From Bradyrhizobium sp. LHD-71 (GTDB lineage: Bacteria; Pseudomonadota; Alphaproteobacteria; Rhizobiales; Xanthobacteraceae): a DNA stretch of 64,000 nucleotides. A program made the position numbers and the translations under genes. Location of the stretch: contig NZ_JAVIFX010000010.1 in assembly GCF_031157255.1 (NCBI RefSeq), positions 124,001-188,000 of the forward strand, read 5' to 3'. How positions within the stretch are numbered: the first letter of the stretch is position 1; every line of letters starts with the position of its first letter. This document shows, piece by piece, positions 15,714 to 30,540 of the stretch. The notes beneath the pieces were generated by a model that was not told the origin of the DNA, ran no database searches, and worked only from the letters and a program-made list of their open reading frames with translations.

Positions 15714-15830
15714 GGCCGAGGGTGCCGAGAAGCACAGCGAACTTCGGGTTCGGGACACTGGCGAACGGCTTGATTTTCGACGTGCCAAGGGCGACCTTGG
15801 CCGCAGAGTTAGAGACTTTGGAGGCTTTGA

Positions 15831-16166
15831 GTGGCGGATCAAAACCATAGCGTCGAGGATTTGACGCCGGCTGATGTCGCAAACGGCATCGCGGAAGGAA
15901 AATATCTCCTTGTCGACGTGCGCGAGCCGAATGAGGTTGCTGCGGAAGCCTATCCGGACGCAGAGATCGTTCCTCTCTCGAGCTTCGACCCGGCGAGCAT
16001 TCCCGACCCGAAAGGCAAGCAGGTGGTGTTCGCCTGCCGGTCCGGAAAGCGGTCAGTGACGGCCTCGCTCGCGGCCCAGGCGGCCGGGCTTCCGTACGAC
16101 AAGCATCTGGCCGGTGGAATTATCGGCTGGAAGGCTGCAGGCCTTCCAACCAAGACCGGCGGCTGA
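15831..16166 (+). CDS. Single-domain rhodanese-like protein
   Basis: This is a predicted cytoplasmic sulfurtransferase of 111 residues. It starts at GTG 15831, with GGAGG six bases upstream. The domain has LLVDVREPNEVAAEAYPDAE and the active loop VVFACRSGKRSVTA, in which Cys is the persulfide carrier and Arg-Ser-Gly-Lys-Arg-Ser is the six-residue loop. GGIIGWKAAGLP is the typical C-terminal motif. The aminotransferase gene starts eight bases after the stop, so the two are probably co-transcribed. Confidence 0.9.
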   Translation: MADQNHSVEDLTPADVANGIAEGKYLLVDVREPNEVAAEAYPDAEIVPLSSFDPASIPDPKGKQVVFACRSGKRSVTASLAAQAAGLPYDKHLAGGIIGWKAAGLPTKTGG

Positions 16167-16174
16167 CCGGTGCG

Positions 16175-17332
16175 ATGAACCCAGTCTACGCGAATCTTCC
16201 GACCACCGTCTTCGAGGTGATGTCGCAGCTCGCGCGCGAGCACGACGCCATCAATCTCGGGCAGGGGTTTCCAGACGACCCGGGTCCGGAGGACGTTCGC
16301 CGCAAGGCCGCTGAAGCCTCGATCGACGGTTACAACCAATATCCGCCGATGATGGGCACCTCGGAGTTGCGTGAGGCGGTCGCCCGTCACTACGCGCACT
16401 GGCAGGGCCTGAAGCTCGATCCGCAGAGCGAGGTCATGGTGACGTCCGGGGCAACCGAAGCCGTCGCCAGCGCGCTGTTCGGGCTGATCGAGCCGGGCGA
16501 CGAGGTCGTGGTGTTTGCGCCCGCTTATGACGCCTATCTCCCGTTGATCCGGCGAGCCGGCGGCATCGTCCGGGTGGTGCGATTGCAGCCGCCGGACTGG
16601 CGGTTGACCGAAGAGGCGTTGCGCGCCGTGTTCAGCCGGAAGACGAAGGTGGTCGTCTTCAACAGCCCGCAGAATCCGGCGGCGGTCGTCTATCCGCGCG
16701 CAGACCTGGAACTGCTCGCGCGCTTTTGTCAGGAGTTCGACACGATCGCGGTGTGTGACGAGGTGTGGGAGCATGTCGTGTTCGACGGCCGCGAACACAT
16801 TCCGCTCATCACCCTGCCGGGGATGCGCGATCGCGCAGTGAAAATCGGATCCGCAGGAAAGATTTTCTCGCTGACGGGCTGGAAGGTCGGCTTCGTGTGT
16901 GCGGCACCGCATATCCTGCGCGTGCTTGCGAAGGCGCACCAGTTTCTCACCTTCACGACACCGCCGAACCTGCAGGCCGCAGTGGCCTACGGTCTCGACA
17001 AGGCCGACGCTTATTTCGTCGGCATGCGATCCGAACTGACGCGCAGCCGCGACCGGCTGGCAAGCGGGCTGACGTCGATCGGCTTCCCGGTGCTGCCGTC
17101 GCAGGGCACGTATTTTCTCAATGTCGACCTGAAACCGCTTGGCCTCAACGAGACGGACGAGGCCTTTTGCAAGCGCCTGGTGGTGGACCACAAGGTCGCG
17201 GCAATTCCGGTGTCAGCACTCTACGAGGGCGACCCGGTGACATCGGTCGTTCGTTTCTGTTTCGCAAAGAAGGACGCGACCATCGATCAGGCACTGGAAC
17301 GGATGTCGCGCGTGGTGAGCGGCGGACGATGA
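16175..17332 (+). CDS. Fold-type I PLP-dependent aminotransferase
   Basis: This 385-residue class I/II aminotransferase resembles the kynurenine/methionine aminotransferase (YbdL) group. It has INLGQGFPDDPGPEDV and the substrate-loop YNQYPPMMGTSELREAVA. The cofactor lysine is K229 in SAGKIFSLTGWKVGF, and the pyridine-nitrogen Asp is in VCDEVWEH near residue 195. The usual NPHNPTG motif appears as NSPQNPAAVV, slightly divergent. Methionine or aromatic keto-acid transamination is likely but unproven. The stop overlaps an ATG of the following binding-protein frame. Confidence 0.9.
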   Translation: MNPVYANLPTTVFEVMSQLAREHDAINLGQGFPDDPGPEDVRRKAAEASIDGYNQYPPMMGTSELREAVARHYAHWQGLKLDPQSEVMVTSGATEAVASALFGLIEPGDEVVVFAPAYDAYLPLIRRAGGIVRVVRLQPPDWRLTEEALRAVFSRKTKVVVFNSPQNPAAVVYPRADLELLARFCQEFDTIAVCDEVWEHVVFDGREHIPLITLPGMRDRAVKIGSAGKIFSLTGWKVGFVCAAPHILRVLAKAHQFLTFTTPPNLQAAVAYGLDKADAYFVGMRSELTRSRDRLASGLTSIGFPVLPSQGTYFLNVDLKPLGLNETDEAFCKRLVVDHKVAAIPVSALYEGDPVTSVVRFCFAKKDATIDQALERMSRVVSGGR

Positions 17333-17343
17333 AGGAGAGGATG

Positions 17344-18444
17344 ATGCGGCTTGCTCGTCTGCTTGTGGCGGCGCTCACCGTCGTTCCGTTCGCAGCCGAA
17401 GGACAGGAGCGCAAGGTCAACTTCTACAACTGGTCGAACTATATCGCGCCGGGCGTGCTCGAGGACTTCACCAGGGAGACCGGCATCAAGGTCGTCTACG
17501 ACACCTTCGATGCGAACGAGACGCTGGAGACACGTCTTCTGGCTGGCCGGTCCGGTTACGACCTCGTCGTGCCGGGCGCCTATTTCCTTGAGCGGCAGAT
17601 CAGGGCCAACGTCTTTCAGAAGCTCGACAAGTCGAAGCTGCCGAACCTCGTTCACGCCTGGCCGGAGGTTACCCAGAAGCTCGCCGTCTACGATCCCGGC
17701 AACCAGTACGGCGCGAACTACATGTGGGGGACCACCGGCGTCGGCTACAATGTCAAGAAGGCGAGGGAGGTGCTGGGCCCGAACGTCCGGCTCGAGGAGG
17801 CGATGGGGACCCTCGATATCGTGTTCAAGCCGGAGAATCTCTCGAAGTTCAAGGACTGCGGCATCCAGATGCTCGATTCCGCCGACGATATCCTGCCCGC
17901 GGCGCTGACCTATCTGAAGCTCGATCCGAATTCATCGAAGCAGGCGGACCTGGAGAAGGCGGCGGAATTGATCGGCAAGATCAGGCCCTTCGTGCGCAAG
18001 TTCCATTCGTCGGAATACCTTGCGGCGCTCGCCGGCGGTGAGATCTGCTTCGTGTTCGGCTGGTCGGGAGACATCAAGCAGGCGCAGAGCCGTGCCGAAG
18101 AAGCAAAGAACGGCGTCGAGATCGCCTACGCCATTCCGAAGGAAGGCGCGCAGATGTTCTTTGACAATCTCGCGGTTCCTGCGGACGCGAGGAATGTCGC
18201 TGAGGCGCACGAATTGATCAATTACCTCTATCGGCCGGAGGTCGCGGCGAGGAACTCCGATTTCCTGTCCTATGCCAACGGCAATCTGGCGAGCCAGAAG
18301 TTGATCAGTGCGAAGGTGATCAACGACAAGACGATCTACCCCGACGAAGCCACATTGAAGCAGCTGTTCGTGATCACTGCCCGAGATCAGGCGGCGCAGC
18401 GTGTCGTCAACCGGATCTGGACGCGGGTGAAGACGGGCAGGTAG
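17344..18444 (+). CDS. Polyamine-type ABC transporter substrate-binding protein
   Basis: This periplasmic binding protein of the PotD/PotF family has 366 residues from ATG 17344. I chose this start because AAGGAG lies six bases upstream and the signal peptide (RLARLLVAALTVVPFAAEG) then begins directly. ATGs at 17329 and 17341 are also in frame. Mature-protein motifs include VNFYNWSNYIAPGVLEDF, GYDLVVPGAYFLERQI and YMWGTTGVGYN, all typical of spermidine/putrescine binders. No permease or ATPase genes are next to it, so it must use a distant transporter or act as a sensor. Confidence 0.9.
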   Translation: MRLARLLVAALTVVPFAAEGQERKVNFYNWSNYIAPGVLEDFTRETGIKVVYDTFDANETLETRLLAGRSGYDLVVPGAYFLERQIRANVFQKLDKSKLPNLVHAWPEVTQKLAVYDPGNQYGANYMWGTTGVGYNVKKAREVLGPNVRLEEAMGTLDIVFKPENLSKFKDCGIQMLDSADDILPAALTYLKLDPNSSKQADLEKAAELIGKIRPFVRKFHSSEYLAALAGGEICFVFGWSGDIKQAQSRAEEAKNGVEIAYAIPKEGAQMFFDNLAVPADARNVAEAHELINYLYRPEVAARNSDFLSYANGNLASQKLISAKVINDKTIYPDEATLKQLFVITARDQAAQRVVNRIWTRVKTGR

Positions 18445-18461
18445 CGGTCAGAATCGGCCGG

Positions 18462-19388
18462 CTAACGCCATCGTCGATGGAGCCACAGCCACTGTTCGGG
18501 ATGCTCGCGAATCCATCCCTCGATGATCGCGTTGATCTTCTGCGTCGTGCCCTGCACGTCGATCGCGCCGTTCGCATCGCGTACCGGCTCGACCTCGTCG
18601 GTGATCTCGGCACGAAAGCGGTCCCCGGGCAGGCGGACGATGCGCGTGCCGTGGATCGGGCACTCGATCTGGCGCGCGAGGCGGGCGAGCAGGGGATTGG
18701 CCTTCGCCGGCCGGCCGAAGAAGGTGACGTCGACGCCCTTGGAATAGTGCTGGTCCACCAGCATGCCGACATGAAGGCCCCGCTGCAGAGCGTCGGCCAG
18801 GCGCACCGGTGCGTCGAGCGATGTGGCGATCATCTGGCCCATGTTGACGGCGCGGATGTCCTGCACGGCGCGGTCGACGGCAGCGATGTTTGGCCGCCGG
18901 AAAAGCACGGCGGAGTCGAGCCCGTAGGCGGGGGCGGCCAGCGCCGGCAATTCCCAGTTGCCGAGGTGAGCCGAGAAGATCAGTGCGCCTTTGCCGTCCG
19001 CGAGCAGTTTTTCAAAGGTCGCGATGCTTTCTTGCGGGAGTTCGATGCGGCTTTTTTCCGGATGCGCGGGATCGAAATCCCAGATCCGGTCAAGGTGTGC
19101 GAACTCGCCGCCGAAGCGGCCGAGATTGTCCCAGACCTTGGCCAGGATCGCATCGATTTCGGCATCCGTTTTCTCAGGGAAGGCCGCTCGCAGATTGGTG
19201 CGGCCGATACGTTGCTCCTTCAGCAGCGGTCCGAACATGCGGGCGCAACGCGCACCGAAGTTCGCCGTCTTATGCGGATCAAACCGGCGCACGCCTCGCA
19301 GCACGGAAACGGTGGCCGCGCCGAGCACGGCATGCACGACCGGCTTGAGCGCTTTGCCAACGCGGGCAGCGGCGCGGGAGCGGCGCAT
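18462..19388 (-). CDS. lpxXL: Very-long-chain lipid A acyltransferase LpxXL
   Basis: This LpxL/HtrB-family inner-membrane acyltransferase should transfer the 27-hydroxyoctacosanoyl-type chain from AcpXL to lipid A. It has 308 residues from ATG 19388, which overlaps the dehydrogenase stop by one base. A TTG at 19391 is less likely. The HX4E catalytic motif is H141 to E146 in SAHLGNWELPAL, and VGMLVDQHYSKGVDVTFFG is a second family motif. It is the last gene of the acpXL cluster. The specific assignment rests on cluster position; the family itself is certain. Confidence 0.88.
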   Translation of the reverse strand: MRRSRAAARVGKALKPVVHAVLGAATVSVLRGVRRFDPHKTANFGARCARMFGPLLKEQRIGRTNLRAAFPEKTDAEIDAILAKVWDNLGRFGGEFAHLDRIWDFDPAHPEKSRIELPQESIATFEKLLADGKGALIFSAHLGNWELPALAAPAYGLDSAVLFRRPNIAAVDRAVQDIRAVNMGQMIATSLDAPVRLADALQRGLHVGMLVDQHYSKGVDVTFFGRPAKANPLLARLARQIECPIHGTRIVRLPGDRFRAEITDEVEPVRDANGAIDVQGTTQKINAIIEGWIREHPEQWLWLHRRWR

Positions 19389-20410
19389 CAAAAGTGGACG
19401 ATGATCTTGCCGAACAGCTGCCGGCTTTCCATCCGTTCCAGCGCCGCGTCGACGTTGGACAGCGGGAGTTCGCTGTCAATCACGGGCTTCATGCCGGCGG
19501 CCATCTTGTCGAGACTGTCGACGATGTTCTGCATGGTCTGACCGAACGAGCCGAAGATCCGGTACTGCCGCTGAAACAGCTGCATCAGGTTGATGGTCGT
19601 CGTCGGCCCCGAGGTCGAGCCGCAGGTGACCAGCCGTCCACCGCGCTTCAGCACCAGCAGCGAACCGTTGAACGTATCGGCGCCCACATGCTCGAACACG
19701 ACGTCGACGCCCTTCTTCTTGGTCAGCTTGCGGACTTCGTGCTCGAAACGGTCCTTGCGGTAATTGATCGCGTGATCGGCGCCGAGCGCCTTTGCACGGT
19801 CGATCTTCGAGTCATCGCCGACGGTGGTGATCACGGTGCAGCCGATCGCCTTCGCCATCATGATGGCGACGGTGCCGATGCCACCCCCTCCAGCATGGAC
19901 AAGGATGGTCTCGCCGGGTTTGAGCTTTGCGTTGTCGAACAGCATGTGCTGCACCGTGCCGAACGCGATCGGCGCGCAGGCGGCGTCGCGCAGGCTGACG
20001 CCCTCCGGTACCGGGATGACCAGCCGTTCCGGCATGTTAAGCAGTTCGCGCGCGAAGCCGTCGATGTGAAAGCCCAGCACGCCGCCGACGTTCTCGCACA
20101 GGTTGTCGCGCCCCTCGCGGCAGGCGGGGCAGGTGCCGCAGGTCAAGGCGCCGAACATGACGACCGGCTGACCAGGCCTGAAACGCGTGACGCCTGCGCC
20201 GACGGCGGCGATCTCGCCGGAGGCTTCGGCGCCGACGATCAGGGGAAACTTGCGCTTGGCGAACGCCATGCCGCGGAAGCCCCATAGATCGAGGTGGTTG
20301 AGTGCAACCGCGCGAACGCGAACCTGCACTTCGCCGGCCTCAGGCGGAGGCGGGTCGGCGACCTCCAGCACTTCGAGCTGGCGTTCCTTGACGAGGCTGA
20401 GCGTGCGCAT
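19388..20410 (-). CDS. adhXL: Zinc-type alcohol dehydrogenase / quinone-reductase-like protein of the VLCFA cluster
   Basis: This MDR-family NAD(P)H-dependent oxidoreductase has 340 residues. It has VALNHLDLWGFRGM and a structural-zinc-like Cys series GALTCGTCPACREGRDNLCE at about residues 88-105. The nucleotide-binding loop is VHAGGGGIGTVAIMMA at about 172-187. A homologue occupies the same place in the rhizobial acpXL-lpxXL clusters, so it probably helps form or modify the very-long-chain hydroxy acid. Its exact reaction is not established there. It overlaps lpxXL by one base and lies 78 bases after fabF1XL. Confidence 0.85.
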   Translation of the reverse strand: MRTLSLVKERQLEVLEVADPPPPEAGEVQVRVRAVALNHLDLWGFRGMAFAKRKFPLIVGAEASGEIAAVGAGVTRFRPGQPVVMFGALTCGTCPACREGRDNLCENVGGVLGFHIDGFARELLNMPERLVIPVPEGVSLRDAACAPIAFGTVQHMLFDNAKLKPGETILVHAGGGGIGTVAIMMAKAIGCTVITTVGDDSKIDRAKALGADHAINYRKDRFEHEVRKLTKKKGVDVVFEHVGADTFNGSLLVLKRGGRLVTCGSTSGPTTTINLMQLFQRQYRIFGSFGQTMQNIVDSLDKMAAGMKPVIDSELPLSNVDAALERMESRQLFGKIIVHF

Positions 20411-20488
20411 CGGTTGGCGTTGGCAAGACCTGATTATGACGATTGCGTATCGCCGGTCCGGACCGTTGCGTCAACCGGCAAGCCGGCC

Positions 20489-21769
20489 TCAGGCCGGCTC
20501 GCGGGTCATTATCATCGAGGCGTTCTGGCCGCCGAAGCCGAACGAATTCGACATGGCGGCGGTCACGCGGGCGTCACGCGCCTTGTTCGGCACGACGTCG
20601 AACGGAATTCCAGGGTCGGGGACGTCGTAGTTGATGGTCGGCGGAATCCGCTGGTGCTCCAGCGTCAGCAGCGAGAAGATCGCCTCCACGGCACCGGCCG
20701 CGGACAGCGTATGCCCGATCATCGACTTGTTGGATGAAACCGGAATTTGCTTCGCTCGTTCGCCGAATACTGTCGAGATGCCGAGGTACTCCATCTTGTC
20801 GTTCTCGGGCGTCGAGGTGCCGTGGGCGTTGATGTAGTCGATCTGCTCTGGCGCCAGACCCGCGTCAGCAAGTGCATTGCGCACACAGCCGATAATCGGC
20901 TTGCCGTCCGGGCTCGAGCGGGTGCGGTGGAACGAGTCGGCAAGCTCGCCGCATCCAGCGATCACGCCAAGAACACGCGCGCCGCGGGCAGTTGCCGCTT
21001 CCAGGCTCTCCAACACCAGTGTGCCGGCTCCCTCGGCCAGCACGAAGCCATCGCGATTCTTCGAGAACGGCTTCGATGCCTTCGCCGGAACCTCGTTCTG
21101 TGTCGATAGCGCCGACAACAGCGAGAAGCGGACCAGCGCCTCGACGTTCACCGACGAGTCGGTTGCGACACACAAGGCGGCATCGGTTTCGCCACGACGG
21201 ATCGCCTCGACACCGAGCTGAATAGCGCTGACGCCGGATGCGCAAGCCGTTGAGATCGAAATAGGAGATCCCTTTGTGCCGTACTTGTCCGCAAGTTGAT
21301 CAGCAGACGAACCAAACAGGAAGCGGCGATGCATGTCCTTGTATTTGCCGCCGCCGCACAGTTTCAGCATCGCATCATAGTCGATCGCCGCGTCCTTACC
21401 GATCGTGAAGGCAAGCTCGTCGCGCATCGGCCAATCCAACTCGACCGGCGCGACCGCGAGAAAGAGCGGTCCGGGAAAGCTTCCGGGTGAGCCGATGCCG
21501 GATTGCGCGACGGCTTCCTCAGTGGCGACGTCCGCAAAGCGGTCGGCGAATTCGGGCGCCGAATTGCGCGCGGCGGGCAGAAAGTCGATCGCGCCCGCCA
21601 TCGTCGTCCGCAAGCCATCGGTCGGAAAACGCGTGATCGCACGGATGCCGGATTCGCCGGCGGTCAGCTTTGACCAGTTCTCGGTCTTTCCCGCACCCAG
21701 CGAGGTGACGATGCCCATGCCGGTGACAACGACGATCGGCCGGCCTGCATGATCGCGCATATTCCCCAT
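20489..21769 (-). CDS. fabF1XL: Beta-ketoacyl-ACP synthase, active FabF1XL subunit
   Basis: This condensing enzyme elongates acyl chains on AcpXL. It has 426 residues and a complete catalytic triad: Cys176 in STACASG, His316 in NAHGTSTP and His353 in MIGHTLSAAG. The C-terminus has SNSFGFGGQNAS. Upstream, GGGGAGAA lies before ATG 21769. It follows fabF2XL by 18 bases and is in the same minus-strand operon as acpXL. Working with the Cys-free neighbour as a heterodimer is an inference. Confidence 0.92.
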   Translation of the reverse strand: MGNMRDHAGRPIVVVTGMGIVTSLGAGKTENWSKLTAGESGIRAITRFPTDGLRTTMAGAIDFLPAARNSAPEFADRFADVATEEAVAQSGIGSPGSFPGPLFLAVAPVELDWPMRDELAFTIGKDAAIDYDAMLKLCGGGKYKDMHRRFLFGSSADQLADKYGTKGSPISISTACASGVSAIQLGVEAIRRGETDAALCVATDSSVNVEALVRFSLLSALSTQNEVPAKASKPFSKNRDGFVLAEGAGTLVLESLEAATARGARVLGVIAGCGELADSFHRTRSSPDGKPIIGCVRNALADAGLAPEQIDYINAHGTSTPENDKMEYLGISTVFGERAKQIPVSSNKSMIGHTLSAAGAVEAIFSLLTLEHQRIPPTINYDVPDPGIPFDVVPNKARDARVTAAMSNSFGFGGQNASMIMTREPA

Positions 21770-21787
21770 CGGCGTTCTCCCCGCAGC

Positions 21788-22978
21788 CTAGTTCACCGCT
21801 TCGACGAGCGCGATGCCTTCACCGCGCCAATGACCCGTCCCAACCACCACAATCTGGGTGGGCGCAGCCGTCATTGCAATCTCAAAGCCGGATGGATCTG
21901 CCGGGGGAAAGAGTCCCCCTCTTGAAAGGGCGAGGGCGGCCAGCGCGACGCCCAGGGGAAACTGTGCTTCCATGGCGTGCCCGAACCGCGTGCCGGTCGC
22001 GCGTACGGGAAGCGCCTTGTGCTTTTCGAGAAACTGGCGCTCCTCGGCGGTCACAGGCTCCGCGCCGGTTGCCCCGGTAATGATCGCAACGTCGTCGCGC
22101 GCGCCGGAGGCCTTCCAGAGGGATTCCAGCGTCTCGGTGGTCGCGCCTTGCGTCTTGCGCGCCGCGCGATCGGCGCTCACATGCGACAGCTTCGCGTAAG
22201 GCTTGGCGCCGCGCGCCACGGCATGCTCCTTCGACTCGATCACAAGGAACACGCCGCCGGATCCCAGCGCGAAGCCGCCGCTCGGCCCGCGCGACCACAC
22301 GGGCGAGAACTTTTCCTTGAGGTTGAAGTCGCCGAACTCATAGAGCATGAGCATGTCTTTCCGCTCGCCGTTGTGCGCGGCACCGACCAGTGCGATGTCG
22401 CTCTGGCCCGATGCAATGCGCGCCAGGGCGATCCGCACGGCGTCGATGCCGGCGGCTTCTTCGCCCATGAAGGTACGGGAGGAGCCGGTCACACCGTGAA
22501 CGATCGAGATGTTGCCGGCCAAGAGATTGGAGAGCTGGGCAAGGAACAGCGTCGGGCGCAGATCGCTCATCAGCCGTTCGTTCAGGAAGTTCGGCGCCGC
22601 GTTACCCTGCACCTTGGCGTTGAGAATGCCGCTGTCGACCGCGAGATCGCGCTCGCCGCCGCCGGCGGCGACGATCATGTCCGTGCGGCCGAGGATGTCG
22701 GTCTTGCCCTTGATACCGGCGGTGTCCAGCGCAAGACCGGCAGCGTAGGTGCCGATGCGCTGCCACGCCTCCATCTGGCGCTGATCGCCCTTCTTCGGAA
22801 TCTGCTGATCGAAGTTCACGGGTATGAGCGGATGAACCACGTAGGGCGCGAACGTCTTTTCGTCGACGTTGATCGTGCCCTTTTGCAAAGCGTCCCAGTG
22901 GGCATCGAGACCTTCGCCGAGCGAAGAGACGATGCCAATTCCTGTGATCCAGGCCTCGGATTTGCGGGAGGAGGGCAC
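21788..22978 (-). CDS. fabF2XL: Ketosynthase-like subunit FabF2XL lacking the active-site Cys
   Basis: This 396-residue protein has a thiolase-like ketosynthase fold (AWITGIGIVSSLGEGLDAHW), but the nucleophile region reads SIVHGVTGSSRTFMGEE with no Cys. The whole protein contains no Cys residue. The first catalytic His motif is replaced by ITGATGAEP near residue 300; the second His is kept in RFGHAMEAQF (His334). It therefore looks like a chain-length-factor or structural partner for FabF1XL rather than a condensing enzyme. The start is GTG 22978, with AAGGTGA upstream and 10 bases after the fabZXL stop. A longer frame to 23035 overlaps fabZXL. Confidence 0.85.
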   Translation of the reverse strand: MPSSRKSEAWITGIGIVSSLGEGLDAHWDALQKGTINVDEKTFAPYVVHPLIPVNFDQQIPKKGDQRQMEAWQRIGTYAAGLALDTAGIKGKTDILGRTDMIVAAGGGERDLAVDSGILNAKVQGNAAPNFLNERLMSDLRPTLFLAQLSNLLAGNISIVHGVTGSSRTFMGEEAAGIDAVRIALARIASGQSDIALVGAAHNGERKDMLMLYEFGDFNLKEKFSPVWSRGPSGGFALGSGGVFLVIESKEHAVARGAKPYAKLSHVSADRAARKTQGATTETLESLWKASGARDDVAIITGATGAEPVTAEERQFLEKHKALPVRATGTRFGHAMEAQFPLGVALAALALSRGGLFPPADPSGFEIAMTAAPTQIVVVGTGHWRGEGIALVEAVN

Positions 22979-22988
22979 GCGATCACCT

Positions 22989-23462
22989 TCAGTCTTGAGT
23001 GCCTGCCGATTGCGGCAGGCCGATCCGCTTCGCAACGGTCGCCATGTGCCTGCGGAATTCCTCGTTCGGGAATGGCACGTGGCTGAACGTCAGCGACGCG
23101 TTGCACGTCTTCTTGCCGGCGATCGTGATTTCCGCGATCGTCATCGCGAAGCCTGAGCCCTCGTGGGTCACCTTTGCGGCGATCTCAAGTTTGGCTCCTG
23201 GTTGGACAAAGCTGCGCATCTTCGCGTCCTTGACCGCGGCGAGGAACGGCATCCGCTCAAAGTTCATCGAGGCGATCAAGAGAAATCCTGACGCCTGCGC
23301 CATCGCTTCGATCAAAAGGACGCCAGGCATCAGCGGGCGACCGGGAAAATGTCCTTCGAAGATCGTGCTGGTGAGAGGAACTTCAGCTTCGACCTTGATG
23401 CTGCGACCCTCGAGATCAAGCGAGGCGATCCGGTCGATGAGCTGGAAGTACTCGAGGTGCAT
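22989..23462 (-). CDS. fabZXL: 3-hydroxyacyl-ACP dehydratase FabZXL
   Basis: This hot-dog-fold dehydratase of 157 residues acts on hydroxyacyl-AcpXL during very-long-chain fatty acid synthesis. The catalytic His is in STIFEGHFPGRPLMPGVLL, followed by LIEAMAQASGFL with the catalytic Glu in place. I use ATG 23462 (MHLEYFQLIDRI); the longer frame to 23498 overlaps acpXL. It sits 16 bases after acpXL and 10 before fabF2XL, in the order known from Rhizobium. Confidence 0.92.
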   Translation of the reverse strand: MHLEYFQLIDRIASLDLEGRSIKVEAEVPLTSTIFEGHFPGRPLMPGVLLIEAMAQASGFLLIASMNFERMPFLAAVKDAKMRSFVQPGAKLEIAAKVTHEGSGFAMTIAEITIAGKKTCNASLTFSHVPFPNEEFRRHMATVAKRIGLPQSAGTQD

Positions 23463-23478
23463 GGGGGTGCTGGCGCGG

Positions 23479-23757
23479 TCAGGCGCTCTTGGCGGCAACC
23501 AGTTCGTCGATCCGCGCGCTCAGATTGCCGAGGACGAAATATTGCTCGGTCGTTGCCTTGCCGTCGTTGACCTCCTGCGTCCACTTTTCCAGCGGTAGCT
23601 TGATCCCGAACGCCTTATCGATTGCAAAGGCGATGTCGAGGAAGTCCAGGCTGTCGATACCGAGATCGTCGATCGCGTGACTTTGCGGCGTGATGGTATC
23701 GCGCGGAATGTCGCAAGTCTCGGCGATGATGTTGGCAACTTGATCGAAGGTCGACAT
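23479..23757 (-). CDS. acpXL: Specialised acyl carrier protein AcpXL
   Basis: This 92-residue carrier holds the growing 28-carbon-type acyl chain for lipid A. The phosphopantetheine attachment serine is Ser36 in [18 protein letters not shown]. The length and the C-terminal ARIDELVAA helix fit AcpXL and not the 78-residue housekeeping AcpP. The start is ATG 23757; a longer frame to 23835 is unsupported. It is the first gene of the six-gene minus-strand cluster, so the operon promoter should lie in 23758-23944. Confidence 0.93.
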
Positions 23758-23944
23758 CGTAAGCCTTTGATTTGACGCCTGTATTTGGTGGGGCGTAGGC
23801 GGGGGAATAGCCGGGCCAGCCCATCGCCCGCGCATGATTCAGGGTCGTATATCGGAGCGAGGCATTTAATTCAATGGCGGCAGGGCCGCGCGACAAGGAC
23901 CGCCAAAAGCTGCATTCCTCTGGCGCGGGACGGACTTGCCGTTA

Positions 23945-24277
23945 CTACCGGCTCGGCTGAGGTATGACCGCGCAATCGCGCCGGCCATACAGGATGCAAT
24001 CCTGGGTGCGGCGCAAGTCGGCAATGCTCATGGCGAGCCAGACCCCGAAACCGATCAGCGCCACCGTGAACAGTCCGGCGGCAATATTCATCCGCATCCG
24101 ATGCCGATAGTCGTCAGGCTCGCTTGATTGCTCGTACCGCGAGAGGTCAGGAGGTGGTGGCCGGAGCGGCGATACCTGCGCGGTCCGGGTTTTGGGGGCT
24201 TCGGCACTGGTCCGCGGGCGAAACTTAATGACGACATGATCGCCGTCATCTGCGGGTTTCGGTTGTTCCTTGGTCAT
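23945..24277 (-). CDS. Hypothetical single-pass membrane protein
   Basis: This 110-residue protein of unknown function has a hydrophilic, Pro-rich N-terminus (residues 1-60). One membrane helix follows at about 63-85 (MNIAAGLFTVALIGFGVWLA). The short C-terminal tail has two Cys in RRTQDCILYGRRDCAVI, which could form a disulfide outside the membrane. It is upstream of acpXL on the same strand but 187 bases away. Similar small proteins with this tail seem common in Bradyrhizobium relatives, from memory. Confidence 0.68.
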   Translation of the reverse strand: MTKEQPKPADDGDHVVIKFRPRTSAEAPKTRTAQVSPLRPPPPDLSRYEQSSEPDDYRHRMRMNIAAGLFTVALIGFGVWLAMSIADLRRTQDCILYGRRDCAVIPQPSR

Positions 24278-24421
24278 TGACGCTGTCCCTGGCAGGGCCC
24301 AACACCAAAGATATTATCATGCCGCGCATGTCCAGCCAGATGCTCCAAGCATGGCCGCCAAGCATGGCTCAACTGCGTCCCGGTGGTCGGCATTGCCGCC
24401 TGACGGTCCGATGCCGCTCCG

Positions 24422-25006
24422 TCAGGCCTGCTTCGGCAGCCGGCCCATGAGGTAGAATTCGTCATTCGGACGCATATTGGTGACGTTGGCCATCCGGTTG
24501 GAGAGGGCGAAGAAGGCGGCGATCGCTGTTATGTCCCACACGTCGTCGTCCGTGAAGCCGTGCTTCTTCAGCGCCGCGAGGTCGGCGTCGTTTACCGTCT
24601 GCGCTGAAAGGCTGACCTTCATTGCGAAATCAAGCATCGCCTTCTGGCGTTCGGTGATATCGGCCTTGCGGTAGTTGATTGCGACCTGGTCGGCGACAAG
24701 AGGATTCTTCGCGCGGATCCGCAGGATCGCGCCGTGTGCTACCACGCAGTATTGACACTGGTTGGCGTTTGAGGTGGCCACAACGATCATCTCGCGCTCG
24801 GCCTTGGTCAGGCCTCCGTCCTTCTCCATCAACGCGTCGTGATAGGCGAAGAAGGCGCGGAACTCGTCCGGCCGGTGTGCCAGCACCAGGAAGACGTTCG
24901 GTACGAAGCCGGATTTTTCCTGAACCGCCAGAATGCGTTCGCGGATGTCGTCCGGCATCGACTTTAAAGACGGTACGGGGAAACGGCTGATGGCGGGCGC
25001 GGTCAT
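24422..25006 (-). CDS. AhpD-like peroxidase-related protein (carboxymuconolactone decarboxylase fold)
   Basis: This 194-residue protein has the AhpD-type active site Cys84-x-x-Cys87 with His91, in ANQCQYCVVAHG. It belongs to the uncharacterised peroxidase-related group (TIGR01926-like), which often has VPNVFLVLAHRPDEFRAFF at the N-terminus, as here. It is likely a cytoplasmic thiol-dependent antioxidant or redox protein. The start is ATG 25006; a frame to 25033 adds nothing recognisable. No alkyl hydroperoxide reductase gene is next to it. Confidence 0.9.
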   Translation of the reverse strand: MTAPAISRFPVPSLKSMPDDIRERILAVQEKSGFVPNVFLVLAHRPDEFRAFFAYHDALMEKDGGLTKAEREMIVVATSNANQCQYCVVAHGAILRIRAKNPLVADQVAINYRKADITERQKAMLDFAMKVSLSAQTVNDADLAALKKHGFTDDDVWDITAIAAFFALSNRMANVTNMRPNDEFYLMGRLPKQA

Positions 25007-25081
25007 GCTGGTCCTCGAGCTTTGCGGAAGCATGGGACCCTAAAGTATCGGGCGCGCAACGAAAAGCTTGCGCGGATCCGA

Positions 25082-26845
25082 TCAGCGCAGCGGTTTCTTC
25101 AACAGCGAGAACCGGTCAGGGTCGAGCCCCATCGACGGTTGCAGCAAGGGCGAGTCAGTCGTTCGCGGAACCGGCGCACGCTCTGGCAAGACCGGGTCGG
25201 CGGCATGAGCCTCGCGATGGGTTGTGGCGCCGCGCCAACGCGCCAGCACCGAACTCACAAACGCCAGATCATGGCCGCTCGACGAGCTTGAAACCGATGC
25301 GATCGTCGCTTCGCTGCGCGGCAATTGCTGCTGCGACAGCTCCTTGAAGCGAAGCCGCGTCGGCAGCGCGACACCCTCGCCGAACGCAAGTACCTCGCGG
25401 GTGCCGAGCGAGGGCACAAAAGACAGCAGGTTGGCTGCCGCATCCGACACAGCGGAGCGCAACAACCCCTGATCGCGATCGTTGGCAAGGCGCATCGTGA
25501 ACAGTGTCGAGCACTGGGAAATGATCGTGGCGTCGAGCTCGGCCGGACGCTGTGTCACAAGTCCAAGGAAAACGCCGTACTTGCGCCCTTCCTTGGCGAT
25601 GCGGGAAATCGCCTTGCGGGTCGGCCCGAAGCCGATGTTGCGGTCGGCGGAGGCATAGCGATGCGCTTCTTCGCAGACGAACAGCAGTGGCGAGGCGCCG
25701 TCGCTCCACAGGCCGAAGTCGAACGCCATGCGGCAAAGCACCGACACGACGGAATCGACGACCTCGACGGGAAAGCCCGCGAGTTGCATCACCGTCATCG
25801 GCCGGCCGCTGGCAGGCATGCGGAACAAGTGGCTGATCACCTCCGCCATTGTGTCGCCGCCGACATTGGCGTTCTCGAACATGAAAGCGTAGCGCGGATC
25901 GTTGCGGACGGTATCGATCCGCGAAAGCAACTTGTTGTAGATGACGCGCGAGGAGCGGTTCTCCAGCTTGCCCATGCGTTCGTCGATCAAGGAGATCATG
26001 TCCGTCAGCCGGTATGGCACCGGCGTGTCGACGGTGTAACCGACCGTCTTCGGATCGACCCGCTTGAGCCCGACGCGATCCGCCGCCTGGTACTGCGTGT
26101 AGATCGCCTTGGCATATGGAATGACCTCGGAAAGAATTTCGAGCTCTTCCGGCACGCCGGGCCGGCCGGCGAAGATCACGTCGACGAACTCTTCGTAATT
26201 GAACAGCCAGAACGGCAGCTTCAGATTGCGCGGGTTCAGCACCAGTGCGCGCTCGCCAAAGCAGCGCCCATACTCATTGTGCACATCAAGCAGGAAAAGG
26301 CGCAGGTTTGGGCGCCGCCCTAGAATTTCATTGAGCAGCAGCGACACGCCACTGGACTTGCCGACGCCGGTCGAGCCAAGGACAGCGAAGTGCTTGTTGA
26401 GCATCTCATCGACGTCGACGTATGCGCCGACGCTTGGATCCTGCTGCAGGTGGCCGACATGGATCGCGTCCTTGTGTGCTGGCGCGTACACCGTCCGCAG
26501 TTCCTGGCTGGTGATCGGATCGACCTCGTCGTTAATCGCCGGATAGACCGTTACGCCACGCCGGAACCGCGGGCCCGAACCGGTCGTGTTGATCTCGCCG
26601 AGCAGATCAGCCGATGCAGTCGCTATGGTGTGATCGCGGTCGGCGGGCGACAGCCCCTCGCAGGAAACCTCAGTGATCATCGCGACCACGTTCGACGAGC
26701 TGCAGCGGATCGAGACCAGGCGGCCCACTGTCGCGCGAGCTTCGAACTGGCCCATCTGCGGCGCAGCATGAATCCCGATACGCGCGAGAGATCCCTTCAC
26801 CGAAATGATGCGACCGAAACGCGCGCCGGAAGGTGAATTCGGCAT
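25082..26845 (-). CDS. HerA-type DUF87 ATPase
   Basis: This 587-residue ATPase of the HerA/FtsK superfamily starts at ATG 26845; TTG 26854 is also open. Residues 1-120 form a HerA-like barrel (HAS) domain. Walker A is at about 157-165 in VLGSTGVGKSSGVSLLLNE. Walker B is in LLFVCEEAHRYAS, and the sensor/arginine-finger region includes FLGLVTQRPAELDATIISQC. It probably forms a hexameric DNA-pumping or helicase ring. No NurA nuclease or other partner is adjacent, so its task (repair, conjugation-like or defence) is open. The C-terminal 60 residues are less conserved in appearance. Confidence 0.88.
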   Translation of the reverse strand: MPNSPSGARFGRIISVKGSLARIGIHAAPQMGQFEARATVGRLVSIRCSSSNVVAMITEVSCEGLSPADRDHTIATASADLLGEINTTGSGPRFRRGVTVYPAINDEVDPITSQELRTVYAPAHKDAIHVGHLQQDPSVGAYVDVDEMLNKHFAVLGSTGVGKSSGVSLLLNEILGRRPNLRLFLLDVHNEYGRCFGERALVLNPRNLKLPFWLFNYEEFVDVIFAGRPGVPEELEILSEVIPYAKAIYTQYQAADRVGLKRVDPKTVGYTVDTPVPYRLTDMISLIDERMGKLENRSSRVIYNKLLSRIDTVRNDPRYAFMFENANVGGDTMAEVISHLFRMPASGRPMTVMQLAGFPVEVVDSVVSVLCRMAFDFGLWSDGASPLLFVCEEAHRYASADRNIGFGPTRKAISRIAKEGRKYGVFLGLVTQRPAELDATIISQCSTLFTMRLANDRDQGLLRSAVSDAAANLLSFVPSLGTREVLAFGEGVALPTRLRFKELSQQQLPRSEATIASVSSSSSGHDLAFVSSVLARWRGATTHREAHAADPVLPERAPVPRTTDSPLLQPSMGLDPDRFSLLKKPLR

Positions 26846-26950
26846 GTCGAACAAGGTGTTTCCCGGAAAAGTTCGCCAGGACTATGCACGGCCCTGCTGG
26901 ACAAACTGTTAAGCCACGTCCGGGTGAGCTGAACGATACCGCCTGCCGTG

Positions 26951-27100
26951 TCAGCTTCGTGGGGCGGCCATCTGAATCTCGATGCCGGGGGCTTGATTCT
27001 TGCGCAGCACGAAGCCGCCTGCCTGAGAAGCAAGCAGCACGAAACTCGTCATCGCGACAGGGATCGCGAGAAACCGGCAGACGAGCGTGAAGTTGAGCAT
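26951..27100 (-). CDS. Possible small membrane protein, 49 aa
   Basis: The frame starts MLNFTLVCRFLAIPVAMTSF and continues with VLLASQAGGFVLRKNQAPG. That gives one membrane helix with a basic turn and a short tail. The upstream ribosome site is weak. It is compact, ends cleanly before the HerA gene and has no competing gene, but it could be chance. Confidence 0.35.
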   Translation of the reverse strand: MLNFTLVCRFLAIPVAMTSFVLLASQAGGFVLRKNQAPGIEIQMAAPRS

Positions 27101-27186
27101 GGCATGATTCTCATCATAAGGCCGCCGCCATGCTCGTCAATTACGGTTAATGGAAGCTTAATATCGTGCGTTCATCGATGCTGGCG

Positions 27187-27294
27187 TCACGGACTGTTGC
27201 GCGAATATCGCGAACGCGGCTGTCCTGAGGAATGTGCCAGCGCACACAAGCTCAGACCGATAAGGGCGACGCCTACGCCCAGGATTGTGAACAT
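27187..27294 (-). CDS. Possible small membrane protein, 35 aa
   Basis: ATG 27294 is preceded by GGAGGGGGC, a strong Shine-Dalgarno. The peptide begins MFTILGVGVALIGLSLCALA, one hydrophobic helix, then a basic tail (HSSGQPRSRYSRNSP). The function is unknown. The ribosome site makes it more credible than the neighbouring 49-residue frame. Confidence 0.42.
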   Translation of the reverse strand: MFTILGVGVALIGLSLCALAHSSGQPRSRYSRNSP

Positions 27295-27467
27295 GCCCCC
27301 TCCACAAATCTTAACAATGCGCGAACAATTTCCGTCGGAATTGATTGACGAGATCTGAACAAGGTCTGGGGCGAAGGGGGCCGCCTCAGCAAATGGTTAG
27401 CGCGAGCCTAACCCGGGCCGGTGCAACGTGCCGCGCCTTGCTAAATGGGACGCGCGGAAGTCGAGGC

Positions 27468-28415
27468 TCAGCTCGAGACTCTCGCATACTCGCTCGGGTT
27501 GACGCCATGAAGCTCGCGAAAGGCTTTGCTGAAGTGGCTGAGGTTTGCGAACCCGACGCTCAATGCAACGTCGGTGACGGAATGACCTTCGTTCAGCATG
27601 GTGGCGGCCGCGGTCAGCCGCACCTCGCGCAGATAGGAATGGACCGAGCGGCCGATGATCTGCCGAAAGCCGGCTTTGAGCTTCTTTTCACTGATGCCGG
27701 TTGCCTTTGCGAGACCGGAGATCGTCCATGCTTCTTCAAAGCGATCTTGCAGCAGCTGTCTTGCATCGATGAGCCGTTGGCGATCGCGTGCACTGATTGA
27801 CTGCCGCTGTCGTTGCTCCTCGCTCAGATAGGCAATGGAAAGAGCAAGCGCCTCCAGCGCCTTTGCCTGAAGATAAAGATTTCTCAGATTGCCCTGCGGA
27901 TATCCGCACTCGATGAGCTGTCTGCCGGTCTCGAGCAGGTTTTTCGAGGCCGCGAAGCTGATGAACACGGTCCTCTGGTCGACGAGGCTGCGATCCACGA
28001 ACAGTTCGCGCGCGAAGCGCGACAGCTCGAGGCCGCCTGCGCGGTCGAGCAGGGCCCTGTCGAACCGCATATCGACGAGGCGGATCCGCTGCTTGGCGCG
28101 CGCAAAGTTCTGCCCGGAGGAGCCGTTCTCTGACGCGAAGATGATCGCGCTGCCTGCGGTCAATGTCACCGGCTCGCCATCGGCCAACTGACTGACGCAT
28201 TCACCGTCAAGCAGGAGCGACAGCGAGACGGTGGGGGGGCCGGCGACGGCGACCGAAAGATCCTGGTCGAGCCAGATATCCGTGCTGCTGATCCTGATGT
28301 CGCCGAGATCGTCCAGCCTGTGGCTGCCGCGATGAGCGGCGAGGCCGTCCAGCGCATCCGATGAAGCCCGGTAGTCGATGCTCCAGACGGATCCTTCCAC
28401 GGATGGCTCAGGCAT
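27468..28415 (-). CDS. AraC-family transcriptional regulator
   Basis: This 315-residue regulator is transcribed away from a TonB-dependent receptor gene. The N-terminal 200 residues form a sensor domain of the kind found in siderophore-responsive AraC proteins such as PchR/AlcR. The C-terminal double helix-turn-helix includes ISGLAKATGISEKKLKAGF and VTDVALSVGFANLSHFSKAF, both well kept. It probably senses an imported ferric-siderophore and activates the receptor-transporter-monooxygenase operon from the shared 151-base promoter region. The ligand is unknown. Confidence 0.9.
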   Translation of the reverse strand: MPEPSVEGSVWSIDYRASSDALDGLAAHRGSHRLDDLGDIRISSTDIWLDQDLSVAVAGPPTVSLSLLLDGECVSQLADGEPVTLTAGSAIIFASENGSSGQNFARAKQRIRLVDMRFDRALLDRAGGLELSRFARELFVDRSLVDQRTVFISFAASKNLLETGRQLIECGYPQGNLRNLYLQAKALEALALSIAYLSEEQRQRQSISARDRQRLIDARQLLQDRFEEAWTISGLAKATGISEKKLKAGFRQIIGRSVHSYLREVRLTAAATMLNEGHSVTDVALSVGFANLSHFSKAFRELHGVNPSEYARVSS

Positions 28416-28425
28416 TTGCGTGCAA

Positions 28426-28440
28426 TTCTAGATCGATTCC
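28426..28440. promoter_or_regulatory. Possible iron-responsive operator in araC-receptor promoter region
   Basis: The complementary strand reads GGAATCGATCTAGAA. It shares GRAATCGWTCTAR with a site upstream of the second receptor (52308-52323), and both resemble the Irr/ICE palindrome known from Bradyrhizobium. It lies 127 bases before the receptor start and 11 bases before the AraC start. The match is by eye. Confidence 0.3.
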
Positions 28441-28566
28441 GAAGATCGAAAGGCGATTTGTCCCCGATCGCGTCAATTTGGCCCCCGGCAACGTTAGCGA
28501 ACAATCGCCTTTGAAAAGGATAACCGCCGCTACGGAAAATCAAGGGCGCTCGGGGGTTCTTTAGAA

Positions 28567-30540
28567 ATGTTCTCATTCAGGTGGCGGCTGCTCGTCGCGG
28601 CTTGTGTCGCAGGCAGCGCGACAGAAGCTTTGGCACAGGCGGTTCAGACGCTCGACACACTGGTCGTTACGGCAAACAAGAGAGAGCAGGAGCTTGAGAA
28701 GATCGACGGTGCGGTTTCGGTTCAAACCGCCGAACAGCTTCGTCAGGCCAACATAACCAACGTGTCTGATCTTGAGAGGGTGTTTCCGGGGCTCGTCATC
28801 CGCCAGCGCGGAAACCGCGCCTACTCGAACTTCACCGTCAGAGGGATGTCATCGCCCGATTTCTACAATCCGAGCGTGCAAGTCTACGTCGACGGCGTTC
28901 CGCAAGGTGACTCGTTTCTGACGCAGGAGTTGCTCGATGTGGATCGTGTCGAGTTTCTGCGCGGCCCGCAGGGCACGCTGTATGGTCGTAACGCCTTCGG
29001 CGGCGTTCTCAACATCGTCACCCGGCGGGCGAGAGAGAACCGCGTCGCGGGCGCGATCACCGGAACGAACCGGACGATCGGCGGCGAGCTAGCAGCGACC
29101 GGCGTGCTCGCCACCGACATGTGGTTCACGGATATCGCGGTGCGTGGGCTACACGACAGCGGCCAGATCACCGATCTGACGACCGGACGGAAGGTCGACA
29201 CCTCCGAAGTCTGGAGCGGCAGGGCCCAACTACGATATGCGCCGGCCGGTGGTCCATTCGATGCGACACTTAGCGTCGCCAAAGAACGGCTGGATTCGCG
29301 GGAGGAAGTCTATGTGCTGGATACGCAGCTTGACCAGCGCATCTACCCGGTTGGCGTTCCGTACCCGGATCTGCAGCGCGATACGCTGTCCAGCGCGTTC
29401 TCGTGGAATTACGTTGCCGGTCCTTTCAAGATCTCCGGCGTATCGTCGTACCAGGACATCGATCTGCAGCGGCGGTTGTTCGGATTCTCCACCCCTGAAG
29501 CGACAAGGCTGTGGTCGCAGGAACTCAAGGCGGTCTACGACAACGCGGGACCGCTCACCGCTCTGTTCGGCATCTACTATCAAGACACGGATTTTACGCG
29601 CTGGACCCCGGCTGCCAATGCGCGAAACGACGTCAATGCCCGTGCGGCGGCCGCCTTCACGGAGCTGAGCTATCAACTGACGGATCGACTGACGCTGACC
29701 GGCGGCGCGCGACTGTCTTATGATGCGTCGGAGATCAGCTTTCGCGGTCCGTTCGCGTTCACCAACAGCGTTGACTTCACGAGCCTCCAGCCTAAGCTGT
29801 CGCTCGGCTACCAGATCACCGAGGCCGTGCGGCTCTACGGACTCGTGTCGCGAGGCTACAAGGCAGGCGGCTTCAACCATGCGGTCTCCACCCCGCTGGA
29901 TGCCAATCCATATCGTCCCGAGAAGGCGCTGAACTTTGAAATTGGCGCGAGAAGCGCCTTCCTCGGCGGCCGTTTGCTGTTGTCCGGCGCCGTCTATCAC
30001 ATCAAGTCCGAGGACAAGCAGATCTATGTGGGAGTCGTCCCGAACCTGGTGATCCGCAATGTTGGCGAGGCCACCAGCACGGGAATTGAGATCGAAACGG
30101 CGCTTCGTCCGACTGAGTTGCTGACGTTGAATGCATCCGTGAGCTACGGAGTGTCGCGCTTTGAGGATTACGTCGATCCGGTCACGGGCATCGACTTCAG
30201 CGGCAACCGGGTCCCTTACGCGCCTGACCTGACGCTGCACGCGGCGTTCAGGCAAGTGATCCCGCAGTCTGTCTTTAGCGGCACGGTCGCATTGACCGGA
30301 GCCGTTCATGTCTTCAGCCGAACCTATTTCGACGAGGCGAACTCTCTCGGGCAGCCCGCCTATGCAACTCTGGACGCAGGACTGGAAGCGGAATTCAGAC
30401 AGGGCTGGTCGTTGAAGATCTTCGGCACAAATCTCACGGACGAAATCTACCGCACCTACAGCTTCCGATCCGGCCCGGCGGTCTTCAGCAACATCGGGCA
30501 GGGACGGATTTTCGGTGTCACACTGCGGGGCGCGCTGTAA
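28567..30540 (+). CDS. TonB-dependent outer-membrane receptor, probably for a siderophore
   Basis: This 657-residue receptor has a signal peptide of about 24 residues (ending TEALAQA) and a TonB-box-like LDTLVVTANKRE. The plug domain is at about 45-160, with VFPGLVIRQRG, SVQVYVDGVPQG and VEFLRGPQGTLYGRNAFGG. A 22-strand-type beta-barrel ends in IGQGRIFGVTLRGAL. It is divergent from an AraC regulator. A siderophore-type MFS importer and a flavin monooxygenase follow with short or overlapping junctions. Ferric-siderophore uptake is inferred from this context; vitamin or sugar uptake cannot be excluded. Confidence 0.92.
   Translation: MFSFRWRLLVAACVAGSATEALAQAVQTLDTLVVTANKREQELEKIDGAVSVQTAEQLRQANITNVSDLERVFPGLVIRQRGNRAYSNFTVRGMSSPDFYNPSVQVYVDGVPQGDSFLTQELLDVDRVEFLRGPQGTLYGRNAFGGVLNIVTRRARENRVAGAITGTNRTIGGELAATGVLATDMWFTDIAVRGLHDSGQITDLTTGRKVDTSEVWSGRAQLRYAPAGGPFDATLSVAKERLDSREEVYVLDTQLDQRIYPVGVPYPDLQRDTLSSAFSWNYVAGPFKISGVSSYQDIDLQRRLFGFSTPEATRLWSQELKAVYDNAGPLTALFGIYYQDTDFTRWTPAANARNDVNARAAAAFTELSYQLTDRLTLTGGARLSYDASEISFRGPFAFTNSVDFTSLQPKLSLGYQITEAVRLYGLVSRGYKAGGFNHAVSTPLDANPYRPEKALNFEIGARSAFLGGRLLLSGAVYHIKSEDKQIYVGVVPNLVIRNVGEATSTGIEIETALRPTELLTLNASVSYGVSRFEDYVDPVTGIDFSGNRVPYAPDLTLHAAFRQVIPQSVFSGTVALTGAVHVFSRTYFDEANSLGQPAYATLDAGLEAEFRQGWSLKIFGTNLTDEIYRTYSFRSGPAVFSNIGQGRIFGVTLRGAL

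Follow-up and report, generated by a model that had tools for sequence, protein, structure and literature searches.

FabF2XL, a putative non-catalytic, chain-length-factor-like partner of the ketosynthase FabF1XL in the very-long-chain fatty acid cluster of rhizobial lipid A

The acpXL cluster and published work on fabF2XL

The window, by which we mean the whole 64,000-nt stretch of DNA analysed, comes from Bradyrhizobium sp. LHD-71 (GCF_031157255.1, contig NZ_JAVIFX010000010.1, forward strand, positions 124,001 to 188,000). Tightly packed on its minus strand lie acpXL, fabZXL, fabF2XL, fabF1XL, a dehydrogenase gene and lpxXL. The gene acpXL (23479..23757; NF005079) encodes a dedicated acyl carrier protein (ACP), and fabZXL (22989..23462) a homologue of 3-hydroxyacyl-ACP dehydratases. 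It is followed by fabF2XL (21788..22978; NF005084; structural model of KAS type), which has a GTG start and encodes a ketosynthase (KS) homologue of 396 residues that appears to be non-catalytic and to resemble a chain-length factor (CLF). The product of fabF1XL (20489..21769; NF005076, 756.3 bits) is the predicted catalytic KS subunit, with C176, H316, K348, H353 and the GFGG gate all kept. The dehydrogenase gene of the cluster, adhXL (19388..20410), encodes a homologue of zinc-type dehydrogenases and quinone oxidoreductases, and overlaps by 4 bp with lpxXL (18462..19391; NF005120, 445.3 bits), the gene for the lipid A acyltransferase. No tRNA was found in a scan of window positions 15000-30000. 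FabF2XL scores 628.5 bits against NCBIfam NF005084 (PRK06519), the curated cut-off of which is 320 bits, and is thus an equivalog of that family; its ketoacyl-synt domain matches PF00109 with 58.3 bits.

FabF2XL of the acpXL clusters of Agrobacterium, Bradyrhizobium and Oligotropha is the same gene in the same cluster, and the available text of the reports terms its product a beta-ketoacyl-ACP synthase or a fatty acid elongation protein (PMC11901934, PMC5613085, PMC7663294). According to the available text, a fabF2XL insertion mutant of A. fabrum C58 makes lipid A without the very-long-chain acid, which fabF2XL on a plasmid partly restores (PMC11901934); polar effects on fabF1XL are therefore not the whole explanation of the phenotype. 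In Bradyrhizobium ORS278, neither fabF2XL nor fabF1XL could be disrupted, as stated in the accessible part of that report (PMC5613085). The very-long-chain acids given in these two sources are C26/C30 in ORS278 and C28/C30 in Agrobacterium C58 (PMC5613085, PMC11901934), and the chain length, which an earlier note on this DNA had put near C28, should be given as C26 to C30. The main text of PMC11901934 contains none of the terms ‘heterodimer’, ‘chain length factor’, ‘active site’ and ‘cysteine’, and ‘heterodimer’ is also absent from PMC5613085. None of the literature matches listed, a set that lies outside most subscription papers, founding rhizobial work among them, appears from its title, opening abstract lines or available text to propose a FabF1XL–FabF2XL heterodimer.

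Active-site positions of FabF2XL and FabF1XL

Column counts for FabF2XL refer to 207 sequences, the window protein and 206 homologues drawn from 200 loci (80 + 120), among which species may overlap and duplicates were kept. Relatives were found by a scan with the FabF2XL alignment; the best 80 of the 564 confirmed come mostly from Bradyrhizobium, Afipia, Nitrobacter and their neighbours.

In HMMER alignments, as with MAFFT, Cys163 of Escherichia coli FabF aligns with Glu174 of FabF2XL, within 168-RTFMGEEAAG-177 (codons M171 to G177, 22448..22468, minus strand; E174 at 22457-22459). The stretch GVTGSSRTF, which the earlier note had taken for the nucleophile region, just precedes the true site. 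In the structural model of FabF2XL a helix begins at residue 174, which fits the expectation for a nucleophile elbow. An intact Cys was sought at this column in all 207 sequences and found in none (Glu in 206, Asp in one), so that the absence of the nucleophile holds across the homologues. The GEE motif is near-invariant despite a mean pairwise difference of 0.44 of positions among 188 FabF2XL rows, and its conservation appears to exceed what chance would give. The window protein has no Cys anywhere in its 396 residues, as had been noticed, but this is not a property of the family, since only 74 of the 206 homologues are free of Cys and the remainder carry 1 to 8. What the family conserves is Glu in the column of the nucleophile, and the total absence of Cys is incidental.

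The column of the first active-site His, FabF His303, holds Ala in 191 sequences, Thr in eight, Ser in six, Arg in one and a gap in one (codon A303 of the window protein, 22070..22072, minus strand), and no FabF2XL row has a His in the adjoining column 304; the loss of this residue, first noticed in the window protein, thus extends to all 206 readable rows. The second His, that of FabF His340, was rightly said to be retained in the window protein (H334, codon 21977..21979, minus strand), but it is not universal, being present in 182 of the 207 and replaced elsewhere by Asn (8), Gln (7), Thr (4), Tyr (2), Ala (2), Ser (1) or a gap (1). None of the 207 has a Lys at the position of Lys335, and GFGG occurs near the C terminus of 5 of 206 FabF2XL proteins, compared with 204 of 206 FabF1XL proteins.

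The adjoining FabF1XL carries the full Cys-His-His triad that had been ascribed to it (Cys176, His316 and His353), together with Lys348, and all four are kept in every readable row (Cys in 205 of 205, His316 in 206 of 206, Lys348 in 205 of 205 and His353 in 205 of 205). Its residues 104-150 (gene at 20489-21769) include an unusual gate loop of its own, in which P108, E110, W113 and R116 are conserved. An insertion in FabF1XL precedes the region equivalent to the ACP-docking site of FabF.

FabF2XL thus departs from a catalytic FabF or FabB in that Cys, the first His and Lys are gone, with the second His left in 182 of 207. Our verdict, as far as sequences allow one, is that FabF2XL is probably a non-catalytic, CLF-like subunit in the lipid A fatty acid pathway, and records that name it ‘beta-ketoacyl-ACP synthase’ probably misstate its activity. 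That fabF2XL might be a pseudogene was also considered, and is ruled out by the strong conservation in 207 sequences and by the mutant phenotype in print.

Pairing, docking positions and presumed dimer interface

In surveys of the class, the order and the phylum, FabF2XL scored above the curated cut-off in 18 of 385, 111 of 397 and 28 of 299 genomes, respectively. All 28 of the last belong to the class; the cut-off was reached in none of the 213 rows of the phylum survey that lie outside it, nor in any of 14 control genomes. Scores in the class survey are bimodal, with a gap from 371 to 94 bits. The few intermediate scores among the matches listed in the order survey were taken for partial matches, that is, fragments of true copies. 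By the curated cut-offs, 112 of the 397 genomes in the order survey have FabF1XL, and there was no case of FabF2XL without FabF1XL among them; the sole genome with FabF1XL only (G604) holds FabF2XL in two pieces that fall below the cut-off (314.6 and 209.4 bits).

The two genes are also neighbours. FabF1XL starts within 1 kb downstream, on the same strand, of 205 of the 206 FabF2XL copies (the gap has a median of 31 bp and is at most 333 bp). In the exception (L183, 3995-5209), no FabF1XL follows on the contig; the genome concerned (G428) contains two FabF2XL and two FabF1XL, and this copy is of the KGEE type at residues 171-174. Six loci (L156, L157, L162, L163, L168 and L171) carry two FabF2XL–FabF1XL pairs, but only a single acpXL and a single fabZXL were detected in the stretch retrieved. 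Every copy read at these loci keeps GEE in FabF2XL and Cys in FabF1XL, and two of the twelve FabF2XL proteins are shortened (247 and 316 residues matched). A further pair is borne by a predicted conjugative plasmid of Bradyrhizobium sp. Ash2021 (L238, NZ_CP100605.1, 5246-8501), 13.2 kb of which yielded no homologue of AcpXL, FabZXL, AdhXL or LpxXL. The duplications and the plasmid-borne pair together indicate that FabF2XL–FabF1XL is a unit that has been duplicated and moved.

Two smaller observations concern these loci. In each of the six with doubled pairs, the FabF2XL copy adjoining acpXL-fabZXL reads KGEE at residues 171-174 and the other MGEE, a split that hints at specialised copies. On the Ash2021 plasmid, a gene for a class I SAM methyltransferase lies directly ahead of the pair, and its last base coincides with the first of fabF2XL.

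The ACP contacts of FabF are K65, R68, K69, R127, K128, I129-F132, A205, R206 and T270, and most of them, by the available text of the report, are made by the KS monomer other than the one crosslinked to the ACP (PMC7138838). A FabF1XL–FabF2XL dimer with one live site would then keep the docking surface conserved on FabF2XL and leave it free to decay on FabF1XL. We compared the mean consensus at 11 of these positions, T270 being omitted at first as part of the gate loop, with that of 20,000 random draws of as many positions. The value was 0.786 for FabF2XL (1.0% of random sets as high) and 0.411 for FabF1XL (0.02% as low), figures to be read with the facts that the choice of positions, though drawn from the paper, followed a partial view of the alignment, that neighbouring positions are not independent and that FabF1XL bears an insertion just ahead of 140-145. 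With T270 included, the values were 0.741 (3.1%) and 0.457 (0.16%), respectively. The catalytic and gate positions gave 0.971 for FabF1XL (0.01%) and 0.622 for FabF2XL (42%). Restricted to the four catalytic positions, the values were 0.971 (0.09%) and 0.717 (20%), the last being raised because Glu174 is conserved. As read from the alignments, conservation is reciprocal, with the catalytic residues kept on FabF1XL and most of the ACP-docking ones on FabF2XL, as a KS/CLF-like heterodimer predicts.

At single positions, the residue equivalent to FabF Arg68 is basic in 207 of 207 FabF2XL proteins, compared with 9 of 203 FabF1XL proteins (R67 of the window protein, in ACP-docking region 1; codons D65-Q-R67-Q-M69, 22772..22786, minus strand). 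The counterpart of the hydrophobic docking patch I129-S-P-F132, L140-R-P-T143 (22550..22561, minus strand), is identical in all 207. Among the basic docking residues of FabF, only Arg68 (and Arg64) has a basic counterpart in FabF2XL; the positions of K65, K69, R127, K128 and R206 mostly carry other residues, and that of R206 is rarely basic in FabF2XL and not basic in FabF1XL. The contact T270 runs the opposite way, being retained by FabF1XL but not by FabF2XL, and the positions of A205 and R206 are highly conserved in FabF1XL, as other residues.

The block comprising residues 103-176 of FabF2XL and 104-178 of FabF1XL is, we assume, the dimer interface, as in KS dimers. Its mean conservation is 0.743 in FabF2XL, compared with 0.596 for the whole protein, a modest excess that 21 of 323 blocks reach, and 0.541 in FabF1XL, compared with a mean of 0.678, a value for the block that 308 of 352 blocks equal or exceed. 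The single-chain model of FabF2XL has a KAS-type fold (pTM 0.86), and a fold search with it gave 50 entries among the matches listed, at Z 40.2 to 42.4, which include FabF, FabB and the Act CLF; with the Act CLF at Z 40.5, the search shows a KAS fold and does not separate FabF from CLF. The model of FabF1XL had a mean pLDDT of 38.8 and was discarded. Mean-field DCA on 188 FabF1XL–FabF2XL pairs over 330 columns, with an effective number of sequences of about 55, returned inter-protein pairs the top ones of which are mostly phylogenetic hubs (K259, E307 and L323 of FabF2XL; D399, D196 and A301 of FabF1XL).

Likeness to chain-length factors and a proposed heterodimer

We compared FabF2XL with three CLFs of type II polyketide synthases (PKSs), two annotated in Streptomyces (NZ_CP061282.1 and NZ_CP108163.1) and the Act CLF (PDB 1tqy, chain B). 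The elbow of FabF2XL, M-GEE-AAGIDA, corresponds to V-GEQ-AAGLDA and V-SEQ-AGGLDA in the annotated proteins and to V-AEQ-AGGLDA in the Act CLF. Common to both groups are the KAS fold, an intact KS gene adjoining (for 205 of the 206 FabF2XL copies), the absence of the nucleophilic Cys (0 of 207 for FabF2XL) and the loss of the first His and of the GFGG gate. They differ in that all three CLFs have Gln at the Cys position, where FabF2XL has Glu or, once, Asp, and in that the CLFs keep Lys335, which FabF2XL has lost. The gene order FabF2XL–FabF1XL is also the reverse of the KS–CLF order of type II PKSs, and FabF2XL, unlike their CLFs, is set in a fatty acid cluster with AcpXL, FabZ and a lipid A acyltransferase. 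A Streptomyces KS-beta without CLF annotation (L236, NZ_CP108465.1, 4974-6275) reads AGYADAG, with no EQ motif and neither Cys nor Gln at the elbow.

By mutagenesis, F109, T112 and F116 set chain length in the ActCLF, according to the available text (PMC4383371). In our mapping of that numbering, these residues correspond to R110, A113 and G117 of FabF2XL, in a loop that starts at G107-G-E-R-D111 (22646..22660, minus strand). R110, D111 and D115 are invariant in the 207 sequences; position 113 varies (Ala 95, Asn 46, Glu 24, others), as does 117 (Ala 81, Gly 44, Gln 30, others).

In phylogenetic trees, FabF2XL and FabF1XL each form one clade (100/100). The non-catalytic groups fall on one side of the free tree (92/95), on long branches. 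Constrained trees joining FabF2XL with the CLFs (p-AU 0.79) or with FabF1XL (p-AU 0.70) were both retained, in a set with only three CLFs. Both constraints gave a better likelihood than the free search, and with such long branches these trees are untrustworthy. That FabF2XL would work like a CLF is nevertheless well supported by sequence. The earlier suggestion that the pair resembles the KS/CLF heterodimers of type II PKSs gains from the loss of Cys, the pairing, the co-duplication, the elbow motif and the reciprocal conservation, but not from the residue at the elbow, which is not Gln. The stronger statement that FabF2XL is a CLF is not well supported, because Gln is lacking and because the trees accord with its union with either group.

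Two systems described in the available text of other reports offer parallels. ApeO–ApeC of aryl polyene synthesis is a KS/CLF heterodimer in a reducing pathway of Gram-negative bacteria, and is likened to the present pair by description only, ApeC having about half the size of a KS and one thiolase domain where FabF2XL is full length (396 residues) (PMC8358021). In cispentacin synthesis, the KS AmcF forms a heterodimer, shown in that report, with the cyclization factor AmcG, a KS partner lacking the motif; in S. albus, AmcG on its own was insoluble, and co-expression with AmcF gave soluble protein (PMC10698177). The system differs from that of FabF2XL in performing a single elongation with cyclisation and in having no lipid role (PMC10698177). 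The model for the KS, NF058662 (AmcF), matches FabF2XL weakly (46.8 bits).

We consider it probable that FabF2XL is the non-catalytic half of an obligate heterodimer with FabF1XL and works like the CLF of a type II PKS. Heterodimerization, the side on which the ACP docks and the role in tunnel and chain length are what we infer from the observations above. FabF1XL would perform the condensation chemistry with its Cys-His-His-Lys set and GFGG gate. FabF2XL would contribute the other half of the dimer with its interface wall, and would offer AcpXL a docking surface from which the active site of FabF1XL is fed; it would probably also form the distal end of the acyl tunnel, so that the chain can reach C26-C30. 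We attach equal belief and doubt to a more specific version, in which AcpXL docks on the dead subunit and a conserved charged loop (E109-R110-D111-D115, with R168 and E173-E174) takes the place of the hydrophobic gate found in ordinary CLFs and fixes the C26-C30 ruler, the pair being a fatty acid counterpart of KS/CLF that arose by convergence or ancient common descent.

The change of Cys to Gln is a hallmark of both CLFs and KSQ enzymes, and no residue is closer to Gln than Glu; FabF C163Q mutants, moreover, have been crystallised. FabF2XL might on these grounds be a KSQ-type homodimer that decarboxylates malonyl-ACP or serves in priming, its Glu acting like the KSQ Gln. We judge this very improbable, since a KSQ has the Gln replacement with both His kept, and FabF2XL has Glu, with Ala, Thr, Ser or Arg at the first-His position in all 206 readable rows, no second His in 24 of 206, no Lys at the Lys335 position in any of 207, and GFGG in only 5 of 206. 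The very-long chain is, besides, presumably built onto a preformed long acyl group, so that an acetyl primer is not obviously needed. A different objection is that the docking positions and the strict pairing require an interaction only, and not a dimer of KS type. FabF2XL could then be a non-catalytic scaffold or ACP recruiter that touches FabF1XL transiently, or otherwise than in a KS dimer, and shapes no acyl tunnel. This seems unlikely for a protein that has a complete KAS fold, by the 50 fold matches listed above, and the best-conserved 12-residue stretches of which lie at 140-175, presumably the interface, as in KS dimers.

The charged residues themselves invite another explanation. R110, D111, D115 and E173 are invariant in 207 sequences and E174 is present in 206, which seems more than a passive wall needs, and OleA makes use of a Glu contributed by its partner subunit. 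FabF2XL could on this basis be an enzyme with new chemistry at E109-R110-D111-D115 and E173-E174, or reach across the interface to give the active site of FabF1XL an acidic or basic group. CLFs, however, which are regarded as non-catalytic, share the E-Q elbow, the charged cluster may merely form salt bridges at the interface, and we know of no reaction that FabF2XL would need to supply; we find this explanation improbable as well, if a little less so than that of a KSQ-type enzyme.

If FabF2XL is a non-catalytic partner of FabF1XL, this would explain why the cluster retains two KS genes, and it fits the failed disruption of either gene in Bradyrhizobium ORS278 that is stated in the accessible part of PMC5613085. 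How the lipid A acid of rhizobia and their relatives comes to stop at C26-C30 goes unexplained in the available text of the papers cited here, and a dedicated non-catalytic ketosynthase would be a concrete candidate for the ruler. KS/CLF-type pairing would then extend from polyketide-type products to an outer-membrane lipid.

In PDB 9s5h, chains B and C are two different ketosynthase chains, of which B matches the FabF2XL profile with 82.8 bits.
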